Shown here piece by piece: positions 3,059 to 20,648 of a DNA stretch of 40,331 nt. Numbering within the stretch: the first letter of the stretch is position 1; each line of letters begins with the position of its first letter. This DNA comes from a virus. The position numbers and the translations under genes were made by a program. The notes beneath the pieces are model-generated. The model saw only the letters and a program-made list of their open reading frames with translations, did not search any database and was not told where the DNA came from. The stretch lies in the IMG/VR virus record IMGVR_UViG_3300032236_000840, positions 1 to 40,331 of that record. One strand, given 5' to 3'.

Positions 3059-5115
3059 TATTTTATTCCGTTTTTACCTTTGAAACAATTTATAGTGTCT
3101 TTATCCCACTTATAAACCGTATTAAATCTTCCTGTCTCTCCTGTTTTACTTCTTTGTCTTTTTTCACCGATACGAACTCTTTGTCCTTTATCGTTTAAGA
3201 AATATGCAATTCTTACGGAACCTGTAATATTATTAGTTTTTGAATGTTGTAATTCTTCTTTCTCAGAACCAAACTTTTTAATAAAATCATCTTGATTATT
3301 AGTACCCATACATCCCGAAATGATATCATCATTAATAACACCAAATCCACATACAACTTTGAATAAACCTGGATATTTGAATACACCATGCTTATCACCC
3401 ATTGCACCACCCATATGGAATTTATCTATAAAATTTAAAGCATCCATATAATCACCCAATCCAACTTTTCCACCTTTAACTGGTACTTTAACTTTATTCA
3501 TTTCATCTAACATAGCTCTTTCAACTGCTACCGATTTTTTTCTAATATCATCAATTTTTGCAGCAACTAAATCATCTAAACCAAATGATTTTTTTAATCT
3601 AGCTATAATTTCACCTTCATCTTTTGATAAGTTTTCAGGTTCTGATTTTGCTTTTGTTAAAAAATTCTTTATTGCTTCACTTTCTTTGTTACCATATTTT
3701 GGAACAATTTTATTATAATATTTCATTGGGTCAGCTCCACCACTAATTCCTTTCAATGCTTGTCCAACTTTTTTAGGGTCTACTTTTAACATAGCTTGAG
3801 CAGGTATTGCCGCAACTGTTTTTAATCCTTCTTCAATCGAATTTAATTTTGCAGTTTGTTTATCAATTATAGATTTAAAAGCTTCTGCATTTTTAGCAGG
3901 TAATTTACCTTCTTTAACTAAAGAATCAATTTGTGATTTTTTAATATCACCTTCTTTTGCAAATGATGATTGTGCAACAATTGCATCAAATGAATCTTTA
4001 TCGGATGAAAATTGAATACAAGTTTCACCAGTTTTAGTATTGTATGTAAATTGCGCAGTATCCGATGGATTTGCTGCTTTACCTGAATTTGCAATCATGT
4101 GTAATGCTACATCTTTTGGTATTTCGGTTCCATCTGGTCCTACTATTCTATGTGAACTTTTTATAAAATCCATTTGAGCATTTAAGCCTGTTTTATCTCC
4201 AAAGAAACCATGGAATACACAATCTTCCGGATTCCAACCATTTGCTTTCATTGCTTTAACACCATCTTTAGCTTTGATTACACCAGCACTTGCTGCAATA
4301 TAAACTCTTGATAAAGCGGCATCATTTAATTTTTTAAGTTCTGGATGTTTTGCTCTAAGTTCATTCATTGTTTTAGTAGATACACCACCTGCTGCAGTAC
4401 CACTACTATTATTTGCCAATAATTTTCCACCTTTTAATTGTTCATATAAATAAACAGTAGCTTGACCTGAATCAGCTACATTGTTTTCCATACAATATTG
4501 CGCAACATCATTTGAACCATTTTCATTTAACATAGAACCATCATTACCAGGTGCAGCACCTTTAATAAATCCTGTTTTATAATGTCTTTTAGTTTGAGCT
4601 GTCACCATATCATTGATAGTATCAATTTTTTGATTTTGTTCTGGTGAAGCACTTGATGTTGGTTTTTTAGATTTTGTATCGTTTGGTTTTGTTGCAGGTT
4701 TTTCTTTATCAAATACATCGGCACCTTTACCTTTTCCAAATACATTTGCACCTTTTACAGGTTTTTGTTCTGGTTCTTCTTTACCAAAAGTACCATTAGC
4801 TTTTGCTTTTTGAATATCCTGTGGAGTTGCTTTTGTATGTTTAGATGGGTCAAAATTCTTTACGGGATATACAGCACCACTATCTTTATTTACAACTAAT
4901 GTTGCTTTTGGGTCAATTGGTTTTTTAGGTGTTGCTTCATTTAAATAAGAATAATATACTCTTACTTTTTGAGCAACTTCATTAGCATTTTCTACTTTAT
5001 TCTCTCTTAAAATTTCTGATAATTTTGTAACTTGTTCCTCTTTATTTAAATCAATAATACCATGTTCTACACGATATTCTAATTCTTTAAGGATTTCTTG
5101 GAAATTTATTGACAT
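3058..5115 (-). CDS. large protein of unknown function, 685 aa
   Basis: Three parts can be seen. Residues 1-60 form a helical N-terminal domain (LKELEYRVEHGI, LSEILRENKV, AQKVRVYYSYL). Residues about 61-165 are a Lys/Pro/Thr-rich linker with a near-repeat (GANVFGKGK, GADVFDKEK). Residues about 175-685 form a large soluble domain with GWNPEDCVF near 290 and ETCIQFSSDKDSFDAIV near 365-381, and a Gly/Cys-containing C-terminal region. No catalytic signature that I know stands out. The gene lies between the polymerase-like gene and the small replication-side genes. However, a structural-gene type promoter box (5149-5158) precedes it, which suggests late expression and perhaps a virion or injected protein. 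A DNA-modifying or processing enzyme is also possible. Confidence 0.6.
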   Translation of the reverse strand: MSINFQEILKELEYRVEHGIIDLNKEEQVTKLSEILRENKVENANEVAQKVRVYYSYLNEATPKKPIDPKATLVVNKDSGAVYPVKNFDPSKHTKATPQDIQKAKANGTFGKEEPEQKPVKGANVFGKGKGADVFDKEKPATKPNDTKSKKPTSSASPEQNQKIDTINDMVTAQTKRHYKTGFIKGAAPGNDGSMLNENGSNDVAQYCMENNVADSGQATVYLYEQLKGGKLLANNSSGTAAGGVSTKTMNELRAKHPELKKLNDAALSRVYIAASAGVIKAKDGVKAMKANGWNPEDCVFHGFFGDKTGLNAQMDFIKSSHRIVGPDGTEIPKDVALHMIANSGKAANPSDTAQFTYNTKTGETCIQFSSDKDSFDAIVAQSSFAKEGDIKKSQIDSLVKEGKLPAKNAEAFKSIIDKQTAKLNSIEEGLKTVAAIPAQAMLKVDPKKVGQALKGISGGADPMKYYNKIVPKYGNKESEAIKNFLTKAKSEPENLSKDEGEIIARLKKSFGLDDLVAAKIDDIRKKSVAVERAMLDEMNKVKVPVKGGKVGLGDYMDALNFIDKFHMGGAMGDKHGVFKYPGLFKVVCGFGVINDDIISGCMGTNNQDDFIKKFGSEKEELQHSKTNNITGSVRIAYFLNDKGQRVRIGEKRQRSKTGETGRFNTVYKWDKDTINCFKGKNGIK

Positions 5116-11822: not shown

Positions 11823-14639
11823 TTATTGTTTACCTTTTACCGTTGGTTGTGCTCTTGAATTTGCATTGTATAATATCGATGCTCTATCATATGCCTGTGA
11901 TGAAACTAATTTACCATCTAAATAAATCTTCTTACCTTCTGCACTTCCCTCTTCATCATCCGTTGCAAATGCCATAATTTCTAACAATCTAGTTGCTTCA
12001 ATTAATTGTGCAACAACTGCCGCTTGGAACATTCCCGTATCCTGTGCAGCCATCAATATACCATTTTGTTGCTCTTTCATTGCATCTGCGGTGGCTTGTT
12101 GTTTTAAAGCCATCTTTTTTGCAATAATTTGTTGTTTTAATGCTTCATCTTTCTTTTTAGCATCATCACTGAACCAGTTATCCCATATACCTTTAATACC
12201 ACCGATTACACCACCCACAGCTCCACCAATTGCAGTACCTACTCCAGGAATAACACTACCAACCATCATACCATATCCGGCATATTCGGCAGCTTCTCCT
12301 CCAACTTTCATTGCTTTACCTTCATTTACTTTGGTTCTATCACCTTCAGCCATACCTTGAGCTTCTCTTTGTGAACCAAAATAATCCCCAGCCATTCCTA
12401 GTCCGGTTGCAAGAATCTGTGGTCCTGCGGATTTTAATAATCCGGTTCCTGCTTTTGCTAAACTAAATCCACCTTTAGCTGCCATAGTAGTACCTTCTGC
12501 TAATGCAGTTTCACCACCACTCACTGCCATTTTTTCGGCTGAATTAACTGCCATTTTTTCTCCTACCGCTTCCACAGTTTCAACACCTGCTTTTTCTACA
12601 CTTTTTACACCCATTTCAGTTGCTTCCTTTGCCACAGCTTCTTCGGCTACACCTGCTGCTGCTTTTTCCGCACCTGTTCCTAATAACTTTGCACCAAGTT
12701 TTGGTAAAAGTTTTCCAAGTAATTTATATGCACCAAATGCAAGTGCCATTAAACCAATACCAATTAAAATATCTCCTAATTTATTTAAAGATTCATCCAT
12801 TGTTCTTTTGGCTCCTGCTTGTATATCTGCTTGCTTTTTAGCTGCTTCTGCAGCCCACATTGCTGTTGCTGCTTTTGCATCCAAATCTTTAATTGTTATA
12901 CCATCTCCAATATATTTTTTAATACTAGCATCAAATGAATTTCCTAATTCTTTAATAGAACCGGCCATTTGTTCTTGTTGAGTTTGTAATTTCCCACCAG
13001 GTCCACCTTTACCCAACTTCATTATAGTATCCATATCCATACCGGTAGCCTGTTGTAAAGCTTGTCTTTGGAACATATTCATTTTATCCAAATCAATACC
13101 TTTCAATTGCTCTCTAAGAGTTTGTGCTGCTCCGGCTGCATCTCCACCTGCAAATTGTTGTCTTACTTTTGAAAGGTCAACCTGTCTACCTAATAATGCA
13201 CCCAATTCCATTTCTGATTTTATACTATCTTTATAGTTTAAAACCATACTTTGTCCTGCTTGCAATACTTTTTGTGCAGCTACACCCATTACTCTTAATG
13301 TTGCAGCTTGCTTCATTAAACTCTTTTCATTACCATAATTGTTTTGTAAAAATAATTCAGATGATTCTGCCAAATCTTTAAACAATGCATTTACAGGTAC
13401 ACCGGCAGTTTTAGCAACTGACTCGGCCATACCTAATGAATTTACAGCAGCTTTACCACTTAAATTACCAACAATTCTAAATGAGTTTGCAATCTTATCC
13501 AAATCTTCGGCTGATGCTCCGGTTCTCTTTGCATACATTGCCATATCGGCACCTACTGCTTGAGCTTCTTTACCCATCAATCCTAAATCGTTTGATGCGT
13601 TTGTTGTTGCTTCTTGGAATTCTTGTGCAGAAACTCCCAATTTTACCATATTAGCTTTTAGTGCACCGGATATTTGAACCGATTGCCCTAATTGCATTGA
13701 TGTTTGTGTTAAATCTTTATTTAAAGCATTTATACCGGTTGCCATTTCGTATTGCATTTCAATACCAACTTTGGTCATACCTGATAAACCTTTAATACCC
13801 ATTACATCTCTAACATATCCAACTAATTGACTTAATGCCAACCCCATTGCAACTATTCCACCAATTACACCTAATGAACCCAATGTTGTTAATGTAGTTG
13901 CTAAACTACTAACTCCTGGAATTGCACCACCTGCTTCACTTGCAATATCTGCTATACCTCGTTTGGTATCTGCTAATGCTTTTTTATTTGCACCAAATTG
14001 TTTAGAAAGGTCAGTAGATGATTTGACTGTGGATTGTAATCCTTGTTTTAATTTTGCAACTTCTACATTTGATTCATCTAATGAATTAACAAAATCATCC
14101 ATTTCATCGGATGCTTGCTTTAATGTACTTGCTAAACTTTCTGCAGAAATATTTCCTTTATCAAATTCACGCATTGCTTTGGAAACTGTCGATGAATATG
14201 ATTCCATTGCTGATGCTGCATCCGCTGCTGCTTTTACACCTGCTTTTGTTTGATATGTATTTTTTTGTAAATTAACTCCAATTGTACCAGTTAAACCGGT
14301 CATTGTTAGTAATTGTTCTGCAACCTTAGAAGATACTTTTTGTGTATCTCTGTATGATTTGTATATTTTTGTACTACTCTCTAATGCATCATCACTTGCT
14401 TCGGCAGACCTTTTAAGAGTGGTTTCTATTTCATCTCTTAATTTTTTTTCTTTTTTTAACTTAACTAATTGTTCTATTAAGAATTTTTTCTGTCCTTCAT
14501 CTATTTGTTGACCTTTGGCTTTTTCTACATTTATTTTTTTCAATAGAGCAAGAGTTTCCTCATACCCAGCTTCTATTTGCTGGTCACTTGCTTTATCTTT
14601 ACTAATAAATTTACCAGTATTATCACGAAATTGAGCCAT
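11823..14639 (-). CDS. tape measure protein
   Basis: A 938-residue, Ala/Lys/Gln-rich, mostly helical protein following the tail chaperone genes, which is where tape measures lie. The first 235 residues are coiled-coil-like. Hydrophobic segments occur near 245-278 (SLGVIGGIVAMGLALSQLVG), 622-645 (ILIGIGLMALAFGAYKLLG) and 795-825 (GMMVGSVIPGVGTAIGGAVG). These are candidates for the membrane-inserting parts released at DNA ejection. The family sets tail length and is wrapped by tube subunits with help from chaperones. By the usual 1.5 A per residue rule it would give a tail around 140 nm, assuming the whole length is helical measure. The gene starts 8 nt after the preceding 80-residue gene and lacks a Shine-Dalgarno. 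No peptidase motif was seen. Confidence 0.85.
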   Translation of the reverse strand: MAQFRDNTGKFISKDKASDQQIEAGYEETLALLKKINVEKAKGQQIDEGQKKFLIEQLVKLKKEKKLRDEIETTLKRSAEASDDALESSTKIYKSYRDTQKVSSKVAEQLLTMTGLTGTIGVNLQKNTYQTKAGVKAAADAASAMESYSSTVSKAMREFDKGNISAESLASTLKQASDEMDDFVNSLDESNVEVAKLKQGLQSTVKSSTDLSKQFGANKKALADTKRGIADIASEAGGAIPGVSSLATTLTTLGSLGVIGGIVAMGLALSQLVGYVRDVMGIKGLSGMTKVGIEMQYEMATGINALNKDLTQTSMQLGQSVQISGALKANMVKLGVSAQEFQEATTNASNDLGLMGKEAQAVGADMAMYAKRTGASAEDLDKIANSFRIVGNLSGKAAVNSLGMAESVAKTAGVPVNALFKDLAESSELFLQNNYGNEKSLMKQAATLRVMGVAAQKVLQAGQSMVLNYKDSIKSEMELGALLGRQVDLSKVRQQFAGGDAAGAAQTLREQLKGIDLDKMNMFQRQALQQATGMDMDTIMKLGKGGPGGKLQTQQEQMAGSIKELGNSFDASIKKYIGDGITIKDLDAKAATAMWAAEAAKKQADIQAGAKRTMDESLNKLGDILIGIGLMALAFGAYKLLGKLLPKLGAKLLGTGAEKAAAGVAEEAVAKEATEMGVKSVEKAGVETVEAVGEKMAVNSAEKMAVSGGETALAEGTTMAAKGGFSLAKAGTGLLKSAGPQILATGLGMAGDYFGSQREAQGMAEGDRTKVNEGKAMKVGGEAAEYAGYGMMVGSVIPGVGTAIGGAVGGVIGGIKGIWDNWFSDDAKKKDEALKQQIIAKKMALKQQATADAMKEQQNGILMAAQDTGMFQAAVVAQLIEATRLLEIMAFATDDEEGSAEGKKIYLDGKLVSSQAYDRASILYNANSRAQPTVKGKQ

Positions 14640-14647
14640 GTACTAAA

Positions 14648-14890
14648 TTATTTGTTTAATTTATCAACATCTATACCTTGACTTTTCATATATGGTTTTG
14701 CAACTGCATCTACTTGCTTTTCTGCATCTTTGATTTTTCTATCAAAGCTTTTCCACATATCTTTTAACTTTGGATTTTTTTTAAATGTTCTTTCTATCCA
14801 ACCATCTTCTCTTTTTTTACCTTTCTCTTGATAGTAAGTTAAAAACAAATCTGTAAAATCGTTAAATTCTTTTAATGTTATTTTGGACAT
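14648..14890 (-). CDS. small helical protein upstream of the tape measure, 80 aa
   Basis: I do not recognise it. It is highly charged and helical, starts MSKITLKEFNDFTDLFLTYY and ends with KSQGIDVDKLNK. Its place between the gp51-like chaperone and the tape measure, with a late-promoter-like box 21 nt upstream of its ATG, suggests a tail-assembly factor or tape-measure cofactor. No membrane segment is seen. It ends 8 nt before the tape measure start. Confidence 0.65.
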   Translation of the reverse strand: MSKITLKEFNDFTDLFLTYYQEKGKKREDGWIERTFKKNPKLKDMWKSFDRKIKDAEKQVDAVAKPYMKSQGIDVDKLNK

Positions 14891-14935: not shown

Positions 14936-15154
14936 TTATCGTTTTTTTGTAGATTTCGTACCCTTTGCATTTTTCATAGCATCGGCTTCCGATTTTTTAG
15001 TATCTAATAATTTTCTAAAATAAAATCTACGAAATTTGACAGGCATATTGTATACCTCAGTCCAATTAAAGCCTCCATTGGAATAATAAAGCAAATCAAA
15101 TATCTCACTATGTAGTAAAGATGAGTAATTAGATGGAAGGGTAAAAAAAGTCAA
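14936..15154 (-). CDS. gp51-like tail assembly protein, probably made by frameshift or weak TTG start
   Basis: Up to 72 codons. The segment EIFDLLYYSNGGFNWTEVYN followed by MPVKFRRFYFRKLLDTKKSE is the pattern I associate with T4 gp51-like baseplate-hub assembly proteins, which accompany gp26-like proteins. The frame is +1 relative to the gp26-like gene and overlaps its last 26 nt. The only start near the overlap is TTG at 15154; the first ATG is 36 codons in, inside the conserved part. The TTG lies in the 3' arm of a hairpin, and the AAGGAGG at 15182-15176 is 21 nt away, too far for normal initiation. Expression as a +1 frameshift extension of the gp26-like protein (about 339 residues in total) is the better explanation. 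The basic tail ends GTKSTKKR. Confidence 0.7.
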   Translation of the reverse strand: MTFFTLPSNYSSLLHSEIFDLLYYSNGGFNWTEVYNMPVKFRRFYFRKLLDTKKSEADAMKNAKGTKSTKKR

Positions 15155-15956
15155 GTCCGAATGGGACTTGAAGAGCCTCCTTCTCTCCTGTCAATGGACT
15201 TACATAATCAAATGTGAAATCGATATCAGGTGTGATACTTTTTATGTAGTTTCTAAATCCTCTCGAATCAACTGCTAAAAATTGATTCATTACAAATTTA
15301 GATATTGTACCTAAATCAGTATTACCATTCACTGCTGTAATGATATGTCTCAATCTTGTAGTAATTTCGGATGGATTATCTTTATTTATTTTTGATATGG
15401 CTTGTAAATCCAAATCAATTTTCTTTTCCAAACCATGTGTTAATAGTTGGAATTGTATTATAGTTCCATTTTTTAATGTATATTCGTAACGATTGTTTCT
15501 ATTTAATTGACTAAAATCAATTTCTTTAGTATTTAACATACTCATATCGACAGTGTAATCAACTTCATCTTGTGTAATAGGGTCTGTAACTGTGATGTCA
15601 TAATCAGGTCCGTAAGATAATACTCTACTTGCAATTAATATTGCATTTTTATCTCCTGATAATAAATCGTCAGCTTTTACACCATCTTCCACTACAACTG
15701 CTTCCAATAATTTATCTAATATGATACCCTTTTTAATTAAATTTGGAGAAGCAAGAATATCTTCTTCTTTTGCTGTCATTAATTTAATTGTGATTTCACC
15801 TTTTGATAATGGAGAAGATTCTGGATATCCCAATCCTTTTGATGGTAATGTAATTACTTCCGTTGGGAAATCGTATGTTTTTCTTTGTGTAGTTGTTGGT
15901 TGTTCTGGTGTGTTACCTAAACCTCTTGAAACTTGTTGTTCGATATTTTCGCTCAT
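15129..15956 (-). CDS. gp26-like T4 baseplate/tail assembly protein (T4_baseplate family)
   Basis: A 275-residue protein with the family lead-in TEVITLPSKGLGYPESSPLS (33-52) followed by GEITIKLMTAKEEDILASPN, then a predominantly helical body. This matches the T4_baseplate family that includes gp26. It lies between tail tube and tape measure, the place of tail-assembly chaperones in other phages. Its 3' end holds AAGGAGG (15182-15176), an 8-bp hairpin and seven T residues at 15149-15143, followed four codons later by TAA. The T run would allow a +1 slip into the gp51-like frame. The N-terminal 30 residues are Gln/Thr-rich. Transcription would start from the box at 15977-15986, downstream of the tube terminator. 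Confidence 0.75.
   Translation of the reverse strand: MSENIEQQVSRGLGNTPEQPTTTQRKTYDFPTEVITLPSKGLGYPESSPLSKGEITIKLMTAKEEDILASPNLIKKGIILDKLLEAVVVEDGVKADDLLSGDKNAILIASRVLSYGPDYDITVTDPITQDEVDYTVDMSMLNTKEIDFSQLNRNNRYEYTLKNGTIIQFQLLTHGLEKKIDLDLQAISKINKDNPSEITTRLRHIITAVNGNTDLGTISKFVMNQFLAVDSRGFRNYIKSITPDIDFTFDYVSPLTGEKEALQVPFGLDFFYPSI
15143..15171 (-). terminator. hairpin plus T7 tract: intrinsic terminator and/or +1 frameshift site
   Basis: On the minus strand TCAAGTCC, a 5-nt loop CATTC and GGACTTGA form a perfect 8-bp stem (15171-15151). One C and seven T residues (15149-15143) follow. The shape is that of an intrinsic terminator, but it lies inside the coding end of the gp26-like gene. The zero frame reads GAC TTT TTT TAC. 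A +1 slip of the Phe tRNA on the T run re-pairs perfectly and continues as ACC CTT CCA in the gp51-like frame. Both roles may hold together, setting the ratio of the two products and reducing read-through to the tape measure. Confidence 0.5.
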
Positions 15957-16055: not shown

Positions 16056-16547
16056 TTAGTATTCTAAGATAGCGTAATCGTAGTTCAATGTTAATGTAAT
16101 TTCAGCTACATCAGTTGCGTTTGACCAATCTAGTTCACCAAATTGTGCGTTTGTGATAAATGCACCCTTTAAAGTCCATTGTTCAACTTTGTCACCAACT
16201 GGTCCTAACATATAGATATTAACATCTTTTTTATAGAAAGCTGCGTAACCATCTCTACCTGTTAAAGATTCGTGTGAAGTTCTAACCCACTCCATTACTT
16301 GTTGTGCACCTGATGGAACGATTGGGTCATAAAGAGTAATTTCTAACTCTTGCCAATCACCTTTACCTTTTAACTTTCTTTTTACGTTGATGTGATTTAA
16401 CTCAACAACTTCAAATTGAATGTTTGGTCTGTTTGCTGTTTTTATCATATATGATTCTATACCATCTATCTCCATAATGAAACGATGTTTCATCTTTGGT
16501 TCAAAATTCTTATAGAATATTTTGTCAAAATCTAATATCTCTGGCAT
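16056..16547 (-). CDS. 19: tail tube protein (gp19-like)
   Basis: A 163-residue protein, the usual length for gp19. It shows the family pattern: KMKHRFIMEIDGIESYMIKT (18-37), then RPNIQFEVVELNHINVKRKL, WQELEITLYDPIVPSGAQQV and EWVRTSHESLTGRDGYAAFY, ending ATDVAEITLTLNYDYAILEY. The protein forms the inner tube of the contractile tail through which DNA passes. It follows the sheath gene after 46 nt, with its own late-promoter-like box (16573-16582), and a strong terminator follows it. The ATG has an A-rich leader without Shine-Dalgarno. Confidence 0.92.
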   Translation of the reverse strand: MPEILDFDKIFYKNFEPKMKHRFIMEIDGIESYMIKTANRPNIQFEVVELNHINVKRKLKGKGDWQELEITLYDPIVPSGAQQVMEWVRTSHESLTGRDGYAAFYKKDVNIYMLGPVGDKVEQWTLKGAFITNAQFGELDWSNATDVAEITLTLNYDYAILEY

Positions 16548-18923: not shown

Positions 18924-20648
18924 TTACTTCATTGAAGGAGAGAAATAACTATACACTTGTGATACTAATGTTGAGTTCTGTAATGTGTTATAGAACAATA
19001 CAGGACCTATACCGGCATTCCAAAATGATGTTCTTGCACTATTTGCTCCAATCGTTAAATAGTTTGTAGATGATGGTGCAGAAAATGCAGATGAACTAAA
19101 TGTACCAACCGATGTACCATCTAAATAAATAGTAACTGTCCCAGATGGTTGGAATGCTGCAGAAACCATATAGTTTACTCCAGATGTTAATGCTGTAATA
19201 CTAATTTGTGCAGAGTTTCCTAATGAACTACCATAAAACTTAAGATAGTTATATGCCGTACTATTAGAAGATTCAACTGCTAAACCAAAGAATCCTGCAT
19301 AATCAAAAATAAATCTAGATGTTGTTCCGATTGATGCACCTGGTCTAATCCATGTATGAATTGTACCCGATGTAGTATTAAATTGTGCAATACCACCATT
19401 GATATTTGTACTAGTATCTTTATACCAGAATTGGTTTGTTCCGTTTAATGCAAAGTATTTATCTTTTCTTAATGAACCCGCTTGATATGCTGGGTTACCA
19501 CCACTAATACCTGCTGCGTTTTGAACACCTGCAGGTCTAATACCTGTGTTCCAACCTGAAAGGTCTAATAAGTCTGCTGTATCTGCTGATTGATATGATG
19601 CTGTTTTACCTGGGTCAACATACATTCTTAATCCACTTGAAGGGATATATGGTTGTGTTGTTGTACCTTTGTTGTGTGATACAAAACCACCTGCTAAGAA
19701 TGTATCGACAGTTTCCACATTCAATGTTACAATCTCCACATCTTCCGTTACAATTTCTATATCATAAATTTCAACTTCCGTTACAACCCCATTATCATCT
19801 CTAATCAACATATCTCCAATTAATAAATCTTCTACTAATTTGAATCTATATTTAGAAATTTCAGAATCGTAAACCCAAAGAGGATGTGTGCCGGTTGCTT
19901 TAATTGCACCATTATTAATTGAATAATATCCACTTGCAAAGTTAAATACCATATCTTTAACAGTCACCAACCCATCATTACCATCTAAATTATCCATAAA
20001 GTAAAATCTCCAATCAACATCCGTACTTTCCAATGATTGATTTTCCGATGGTACTCCATTTGGTTCCCAAGCTTTTATTTGGTCACCTACTGTCAAATCT
20101 TCAATATTAATTACACTACCATCTGCTTTTGTTACTTTTGTACCAAATAATAAACAGAAATCAGGTTGGTTAATTGTATTATAAACATCAACTGCATATA
20201 ATGTTTTAGTATATGTAGTTCCATGATTTGTTGCATTAATATTATATCCATCTGCATATCCCATTGTTAAAACAGATGATGCTTCTGAATATGTTGTTTG
20301 AGTTACAGCTGCTGGTGTAATTGGGAATGTATTTGCGGTATAGTTAATAGAACCAACCGAAAAGTTACCATTGTTAAATGAGCAAGTATAGTTATTTGGT
20401 TGTGTTGCAACTTTTGTTGAAAAGTTTGAACCACTTGTACCAAATTGAAACGATGCGTTTTCAGTTGTACTTTCAACTATGTATGTATATGTTGGAGTAT
20501 TGACTGTAATTGAATCGGTTGCAAATCCGGTAAATGCTACATTTGTACCACCACCATTTAAACCACCGATTGAAACGGCTTGTGTAGTTCTTACTGAACC
20601 ACTAACCGCTCTGTATAGATTTCCTAATGATAAATTTGTTCTTGCCAT
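18924..20648 (-). CDS. fibre-like structural protein with internal Hint (intein-like) domain and C-terminal LamG-like domain
   Basis: 574 residues in three parts. Residues 1-164 are a Thr/Ser/Gly-rich beta domain starting MARTNLSLGNLYRAVSGS. Residues 165-326 are a Hint domain: C165 opens block A (CLLFGTKVTKADGSVINIED), T252-G-T-H255 is the block B TxxH, and the end is FLAGGFVSHN with H325-N326. Residue +1 is Lys327, not the Cys/Ser/Thr needed for splicing, so self-cleavage or transfer is more likely than splicing, as in bacterial intein-like domains. No homing endonuclease is present, as only about 160 residues are available. Residues about 340-574 look like a LamG/concanavalin domain (GTIHTWIRPG, VTIYLDGTSVGTF). 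It lies between a glycosyltransferase and the sheath gene, with a late-promoter-like box 20 nt upstream. Confidence 0.8.
   Translation of the reverse strand: MARTNLSLGNLYRAVSGSVRTTQAVSIGGLNGGGTNVAFTGFATDSITVNTPTYTYIVESTTENASFQFGTSGSNFSTKVATQPNNYTCSFNNGNFSVGSINYTANTFPITPAAVTQTTYSEASSVLTMGYADGYNINATNHGTTYTKTLYAVDVYNTINQPDFCLLFGTKVTKADGSVINIEDLTVGDQIKAWEPNGVPSENQSLESTDVDWRFYFMDNLDGNDGLVTVKDMVFNFASGYYSINNGAIKATGTHPLWVYDSEISKYRFKLVEDLLIGDMLIRDDNGVVTEVEIYDIEIVTEDVEIVTLNVETVDTFLAGGFVSHNKGTTTQPYIPSSGLRMYVDPGKTASYQSADTADLLDLSGWNTGIRPAGVQNAAGISGGNPAYQAGSLRKDKYFALNGTNQFWYKDTSTNINGGIAQFNTTSGTIHTWIRPGASIGTTSRFIFDYAGFFGLAVESSNSTAYNYLKFYGSSLGNSAQISITALTSGVNYMVSAAFQPSGTVTIYLDGTSVGTFSSSAFSAPSSTNYLTIGANSARTSFWNAGIGPVLFYNTLQNSTLVSQVYSYFSPSMK

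Follow-up and report, generated by a model that had tools for sequence, protein, structure and literature searches.

The chaperone gene of phage lambda lies just before the tape measure gene and yields G and, by a -1 frameshift, GT. A review describes such G-T frameshifting as widely conserved 'except T4' (PMC5009743). The corresponding G/GT-type shift of HSTV-2 is very likely +1, and hence the direction of the shift alone is not new. In the RF2 gene (prfB), the P-site tRNA slides +1 on CUU_U or UUU_U with cognate re-pairing, downstream of an internal Shine-Dalgarno (SD) sequence; a minority of species have UUU_U as their RF2 shift site, and the known spacing of a +1-stimulating SD is 3 nt (PMC5009743). 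The prfB gene of F. johnsoniae keeps its +1 site with a perfect SD, although initiation in this organism hardly uses SD sequences (PMC8710568). In synthetic constructs, a hairpin abutting the E site mimics the SD duplex and stimulates +1 shifting on 70S ribosomes (PMC6321510).

In T4 itself, gp26 and gp51 are chaperones of hub assembly. T4 gp51 is required yet missing from the final particle, and a 1968 study cited in this connection asks whether the action is catalytic or stoichiometric (PMC3004832). A literature search that left most subscription journals outside its coverage returned no reported frameshift at gp26/gp51.

In our case, a gp26-like gene shares the position before the tape measure gene with the chaperone gene of lambda. 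It differs from the lambda gene in its affiliation with the T4 baseplate family PF12322 and in a predicted shift that is +1 instead of -1, at the motif V-UUU-Y (a Phe codon UUU with a non-U before and U or C after). The likeness to RF2 lies in the forward slide with cognate re-pairing and in an upstream internal SD. Unlike in RF2, the A-site codon is UUU or UAC and not a stop, and the SD core GGAGG is located 26 nt away with a hairpin between, against 3 nt in RF2. The hairpin occupies the same place adjacent to the E site as the synthetic stimulators (PMC6321510), and would be a natural, evolutionarily selected candidate of this type.

Gene context and the overlapping reading frame

The window, i.e. 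the whole stretch of 40,331 nucleotides that was analysed, is a virus record of metagenomic origin and carries the following genes and frames around the junction:

16056-16547, minus strand: tail tube gene (gp19-like), upstream of the gp26-like gene; PF06841, E 1e-13
15956-15129, minus strand: gp26-like ORF (zero frame), 275 aa; PF12322, E 3.9e-8; phrog_150 baseplate hub, E 5.8e-12
15131-15129, minus strand: zero-frame stop TAA of the gp26-like ORF, 18 nt 3' of the first slip base
14936-15142, minus strand: T domain in the +1 frame, 68 codons after the shift; detected by tblastn, third-position excess and hhalign
11823-14639, minus strand: tape measure gene, 938 aa, downstream of the gp26-like gene; phrog_167 tail length tape measure, E 3e-7

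The gene order is sheath, tube (gp19), gp26-like gene, an 80-aa ORF and tape measure protein; as in G/GT systems, the gp26-like gene thus sits between the tube and the tape measure genes. The 80-aa ORF (14648-14890, minus strand), which follows the T frame and precedes the tape measure gene, has a weak match to phrog_8988 (E 1e-3). Adjoining the sheath gene is a protein of 574 amino acid residues (18924-20648, minus strand), in which a Hint/intein-like stretch is combined with a laminin-G-like domain; it may be an intein or else a structural protein that cleaves itself.

The gp26-like ORF scored 33.7 bits against PF12322, above the curated cut-off of 24.5. Its predicted structure is confident (pLDDT 86) and resembles gp26-type viral proteins in BFVD. 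The top match there, A0A8S5RZL9, is a myovirus protein of 430 aa, a length that would accommodate both domains fused in frame. Among solved structures in the PDB no chaperone was matched significantly; the HK97 tail assembly chaperone 2ob9 was listed with a non-significant score (E 1.2, prob 0.33). The gp26-like product is most likely a G-type chaperone of tail or baseplate-hub assembly.

The second frame lies in +1 relative to the gp26-like ORF and is open as far as 14936, with a first TTG at 15154. A +1 shift would yield a product of 339 residues (271 + 68) instead of the unshifted gp26 of 275 residues, in agreement with the +1 overlap and the fusion of about 339 residues described in an earlier note on this DNA. 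With tblastn, a T-domain match was found in +1 directly at the gp26 end in 83 of 85 sequences (84 relatives and the window). Four further scans enlarged the relatives to 260, of which 257 keep the frame open in +1, overlapping the gp26-like gene at its 3' end. Clustering at 85% identity left 116 representatives, and the frame was open in 114 of them, the exceptions being L261 and L266. Third codon positions differed most within the T frame in seven of the eight pairs compared. Judged from these sequence comparisons, the +1 frame encodes a real, conserved protein domain. Searched alone, the T domain matched nothing significant in Pfam or PHROGs.

Probable slip site and candidate stimulators

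The overlap of the two frames and the region before it contain three features:

15149-15143, minus strand: slippery site TTT TTT T, in which either Phe codon can re-pair one base forward; a C at 15150 precedes it
15171-15151, minus strand: 5' stem-loop TCAAGTCC-CATTC-GGACTTGA, ending 1 nt before the slip site; putative +1 stimulator
15176-15180, minus strand: internal SD core GGAGG, 26 nt 5' of the slip codon

In the zero frame, the 3' end of the gp26-like ORF reads GAC TTT TTT TAC CCT TCC ATC TAA. The distance between the first slip base and the zero-frame stop ranged from 15 to 24 nt in the first 63 representatives. V-UUU-Y is present in the overlap of all 114 non-redundant relatives with an open frame, a conservation that strongly supports the +1 frameshift first suggested from the window alone. 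A T immediately before the Phe codon or T run was found in none of the 109 scored representatives, against 53.8 expected from codon usage (log10 p -39), and U is likewise avoided before the 3-base U run of 15 TTTC representatives; elsewhere in the gp26-like gene, T often precedes TTT codons. The tRNA-Phe has the anticodon GAA. Since the UUU is flanked by A, C or G before and by U or C after, this tRNA can move one base forward with no loss of pairing, but cannot do so in the backward direction.

The T run is exactly seven bases long in 91 representatives and never reaches T8 or longer. The variants without T7 are TTT CTT, TTT CTA, TTC TTT T, TTC TTT C, T6C and T6A. Loss of the T run in relatives, which the earlier note would count against the shift, does happen, but always together with another +1-competent Phe codon or with a new ATG.

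The hairpin and T run reported at the overlap are real, on the minus strand: an 8-bp stem (15171-15164 with 15158-15151, 4 G-C pairs, 5-nt loop), a single C and the T7 run. Taken alone, the hairpin of the window has a modest z-score of -1.89; the decisive signal is the comparison among relatives. In the window's clade, the 39 nt before the site fold with a z of -2.6 relative to synonymous shuffles, and other segments of the gene gave values near 0. Against column-specific synonymous nulls the z-scores were -4.8 to -5.9, with 0 of 200 nulls as strong; folding beyond such nulls argues that the stem is selected, though in a variable register. Split by group, the signal is clear in FFYP relatives (z -3.3 and -4.3) and non-significant in the smaller FFWP group. 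Relatives L038 and L082 have no T7 run, yet a hairpin folds before their site.

In the window's clade, 39 of the 46 representatives have GGAGG upstream of the slip codon at a spacing of exactly 26 nt, and the region contains it in 87% of them, against a synonymous expectation of 2.6%. The L001 clade shows an enrichment too, members without T7 included (68% vs 14.7%), and the L080 clade lacks GGAGG. In the window itself, AAGGAGG occupies 15182-15176, separated by 21 nt from TTG 15154 as the earlier note had stated; its proposed role as a stimulator is upheld by conservation for GGAGG and not for the flanking AA, which vary. Among 30 gene leaders of the window, good pairing with the anti-SD was seen in only one, so that a conserved GGAGG is exceptional here. 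The host class is likely Bacteroidia, in which the anti-SD is occluded. A scan for an internal SD at 0-18 nt from the slip site gave no signal, and the signal appeared only once the scan was widened to 60 nt. The GGG at the third codon before the slip was considered as an SD and rejected, as GGA-GTN makes a better SD and a hairpin fits better. By the synonymous nulls applied, both GGAGG and the intervening 5' hairpin are under synonymous selection.

Downstream of the site, no structure was found in the window's clade (z about -0.5). In the L080 clade, a sister clade, a covarying 3' hairpin begins 5 nt past T7, with 96.7% pairing, compensatory changes of both bases in four of six pairs and 0 of 500 shuffles as strong. 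Conserved in separate clades, the SD and the 3' hairpin both point to the ribosome.

Possible routes into the +1 frame

On the evidence of the sequences compared, the fusion of gp26 and the T domain is very likely made by a frameshift, and a programmed +1 ribosomal frameshift in particular can be assigned with good confidence. It is favoured by the conservation of V-UUU-Y combined with the missing start codons of the T domain and with the gain of an own ATG in the relatives that lost the motif. Several points speak against it: the zero-frame A-site codon is not a stop as it is in RF2; GGAGG is 26 nt away and not at the 3 nt known for +1 stimulation, which makes its role doubtful; the anti-SD of the likely hosts is occluded; and in the window itself, T7 next to a hairpin would be equally compatible with slippage during transcription or with weak termination.

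Owing to this hairpin-T7 geometry in the window's clade, slippage of the RNA polymerase is the strongest rival, although an improbable one. The polymerase would drop one U of U7, or add two, driven by the stem-loop as it folds within the exit channel of the enzyme, and standard translation would give the same fusion. A hairpin followed by 1-4 nt and T7 matches an RNA:DNA hybrid of 9-10 bp, both elements co-occur in the window's clade, and a Roseiflexus IS loses one base through a stem-loop adjacent on the 5' side (PMC5009743). However, 20 of the 114 representatives keep the overlap and V-UUU-Y without a T6 or T7 run, so that a homopolymer is not found in all members. A run that never exceeds seven and the avoidance of U before runs of only three bases also argue against slippage, as do the location of the hairpin within a translated ORF and the lack of an evident polymerase role for GGAGG or for the 3' hairpin of the L080 clade.

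The same frame would be reached by a -2 ribosomal shift at U7 in the manner of phage Mu, a route that we regard as quite improbable. Each of the 91 representatives with T7 could take it with full re-pairing on U7. A backward shift would also agree with the 3' hairpin seen in the L080 clade, an argument limited to that clade. In the 20 representatives without T6/T7, which belong to several lineages of the same family, -2 re-pairing is impossible and +1 re-pairing possible. In a tree of gp26, the representatives without T7 are scattered among the T7 lineages and T7 requires at least four changes; a continuous +1 shift covers all of these sites, whereas -2 shifting or polymerase slippage would require repeated changes of mechanism. 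The two ribosomal routes predict different junction peptides, LDFF-TLPSNYSS for +1 and LDFFFTLPS, with one additional Phe, for -2; the corresponding junction sequences of the window type are LDFFTLPSNYSS and LDFFFTLPSNYSS.

That the T domain is a separate gene, begun at TTG 15154 or coupled to the gp26 stop, is highly improbable. The window does contain this TTG, its sole candidate start near the junction, but it is located within the stem and is not conserved. From the upstream +1 stop to codon 16, no ATG, GTG or TTG occurs in 31 of the 114 representatives and no ATG in 79. As in G/GT pairs, the second ORF overlaps the first at its 3' end with a kept shift site while its own start is missing. 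A domain ATG just past gp26 does exist in cyanophages and in L261 and L266. In the latter two the slip site is broken (TTC TTG TAT and TTC CTT TGG, respectively) and the domain stands in another frame, its ATG just after the gp26 stop; as far as sequence comparison goes, this joint loss of the motif and gain of an ATG is a natural control. A separate gene would moreover leave the conservation of V-UUU-Y in 114 of 114 representatives unexplained. Some FFWP-type relatives (L043-L046) have an ATG three codons past the shift in addition to V-UUU-Y, and perhaps use both routes.

An intrinsic terminator or attenuator reducing the expression of the tape measure and later genes, raised in the earlier note as a possible function, finds no support as the main one and has next to no probability: the window's clade does have a GC-containing 8-bp stem, a 1-nt gap and T7, and a scan for terminator-like sites recovered this hairpin among two sites (0.5 expected), but the stem has only 4 G-C pairs and lies within an ORF whose +1 frame continues, the genes that follow have the same orientation, other clades keep the T run with a non-significant stem beside it, and the +1 domain would be left unexplained. 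Position 15143, at which the earlier note would look for a drop in coverage, is the last T of the run.

Under programmed +1 frameshifting, most ribosomes would stop at 15131-15129 and release G (gp26), and some would shift and produce GT of 339 aa. The peptidyl-tRNA-Phe on UUU would let go and re-pair one base 3' on UUU or UUC at no pairing cost, while the non-U before UUU or the T7 run would prevent the mirror-image -1 shift. Refolding beside the E site, the stem-loop may push the ribosome forward, perhaps jointly with GGAGG, whose effective distance from the slip codon would be reduced by the stem. If the roles are as in lambda, the tape measure protein would be coated by G, and tube subunits would be recruited by the rarer GT. 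The locus offers a natural candidate for a +1 shift stimulated by a 5' hairpin together with an internal SD, in phages that hardly rely on SD sequences to initiate their own genes.

Relatives among T4-type phages

PF12322 is matched by T4 gp26 (E 9e-64) and, over residues 1-201 only, by T4 gp51 (E 4e-52). The C-terminus of T4 gp51 has its counterpart in the small gp51 of cyanophages and KVP40 (hhalign 95.8%, E 7e-9), as previously noted in PMC3037559 and in the KVP40 record. The T domain of the window matched the small cyanophage gp51 with a probability of 95% (hhalign, E 3e-8; reversed control 0.3%). Compared directly with six T4-type gp51, the T-domain profile gave a weak result (P 0.02), and the cyanophage sequences were needed as a bridge.

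With PF12322 in its N-terminus and the T domain in its C-terminus, T4 gp51 unites the two parts, gp26 and T, in a single ORF. T4 thus resembles the window in that gp26 belongs to PF12322 and the C-terminus of gp51 holds the same T domain. In T4, however, T is joined to a full-length gp26 paralog on its own gene (NC_000866, L085, 116479-117228), whereas the T frame of the window (68 codons) is devoid of PF12322, which is supplied by the zero frame. The designation 'gp51-like' in the earlier note accordingly holds for the C-terminal ~45 residues of T4 gp51 and fails for the remainder, which is a gp26 paralog. At the 3' end of T4 gp26, neither a shift site nor a following T frame was found.

Cyanophages and KVP40 share with the window the order of the two domains, the placement of T outside the gp26 frame, and Phe-Phe (FF) codons at the shift. 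They differ in that T lies in -1 with a canonical heptamer, usually plus an ATG. In all 80 P-SSM2-type loci, gp26 ends in NNT TTT TTC with the heptamer U_UUU_UUC and gp51 in -1, and an ATG after the gp26 stop is also present (80/80); S-PM2 and KVP40 have the same heptamer arrangement. The family of the window avoids precisely the U that would make this heptamer. In S-RIM8, the first gp51 ATG lies inside the domain with none near the junction, and Desulfovibrio phage 7757 has no start codon whatever, so that the -1 shift looks obligatory in these two. Altogether, U_UUU_UUC at the gp26 end with gp51 in -1 was observed in L288-L367, L284, L285, L286, L368 and L373 (cyanophages, KVP40 and Desulfovibrio phage 7757).

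On balance we lean towards the view that T4-type phages are no exception: they would make a pair of G (gp26) and GT (gp26+T) by a +1 shift in the window's lineage, by a -1 shift in cyanophages, KVP40 and others, or by duplication in T4, with gp51 as GT, the shift in the window's lineage being driven by a new composite signal of internal SD, hairpin between and V-UUU-Y. Compared with its relatives, phage T4 appears to have replaced the frameshift by a second gene copy, and the comparison with them suggests that in T4 the GT form of the chaperone has been relocated to a gene of its own, gp51. That gp51 is required but absent from the particle, with the question of catalytic action raised for it, would suit a low-copy GT. 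Once gp51 is regarded as the GT form, a question that has stood for decades can be put to a direct test in T4. Within the family, nature offers a series of solutions to one junction: a +1 shift, a -1 shift, a separate ORF or gene duplication.

In several of the public records examined, the T domain is unannotated, has its start placed inside the domain or appears as 'hypothetical protein'. The deposited gp51 start of S-RIM8 (L373, 1762-1899) falls inside the domain. In Flavobacterium phage immuto (L001), the T frame at 3188-3446 is not annotated as such, and the record holds just a small hypothetical protein at 3336-3446.
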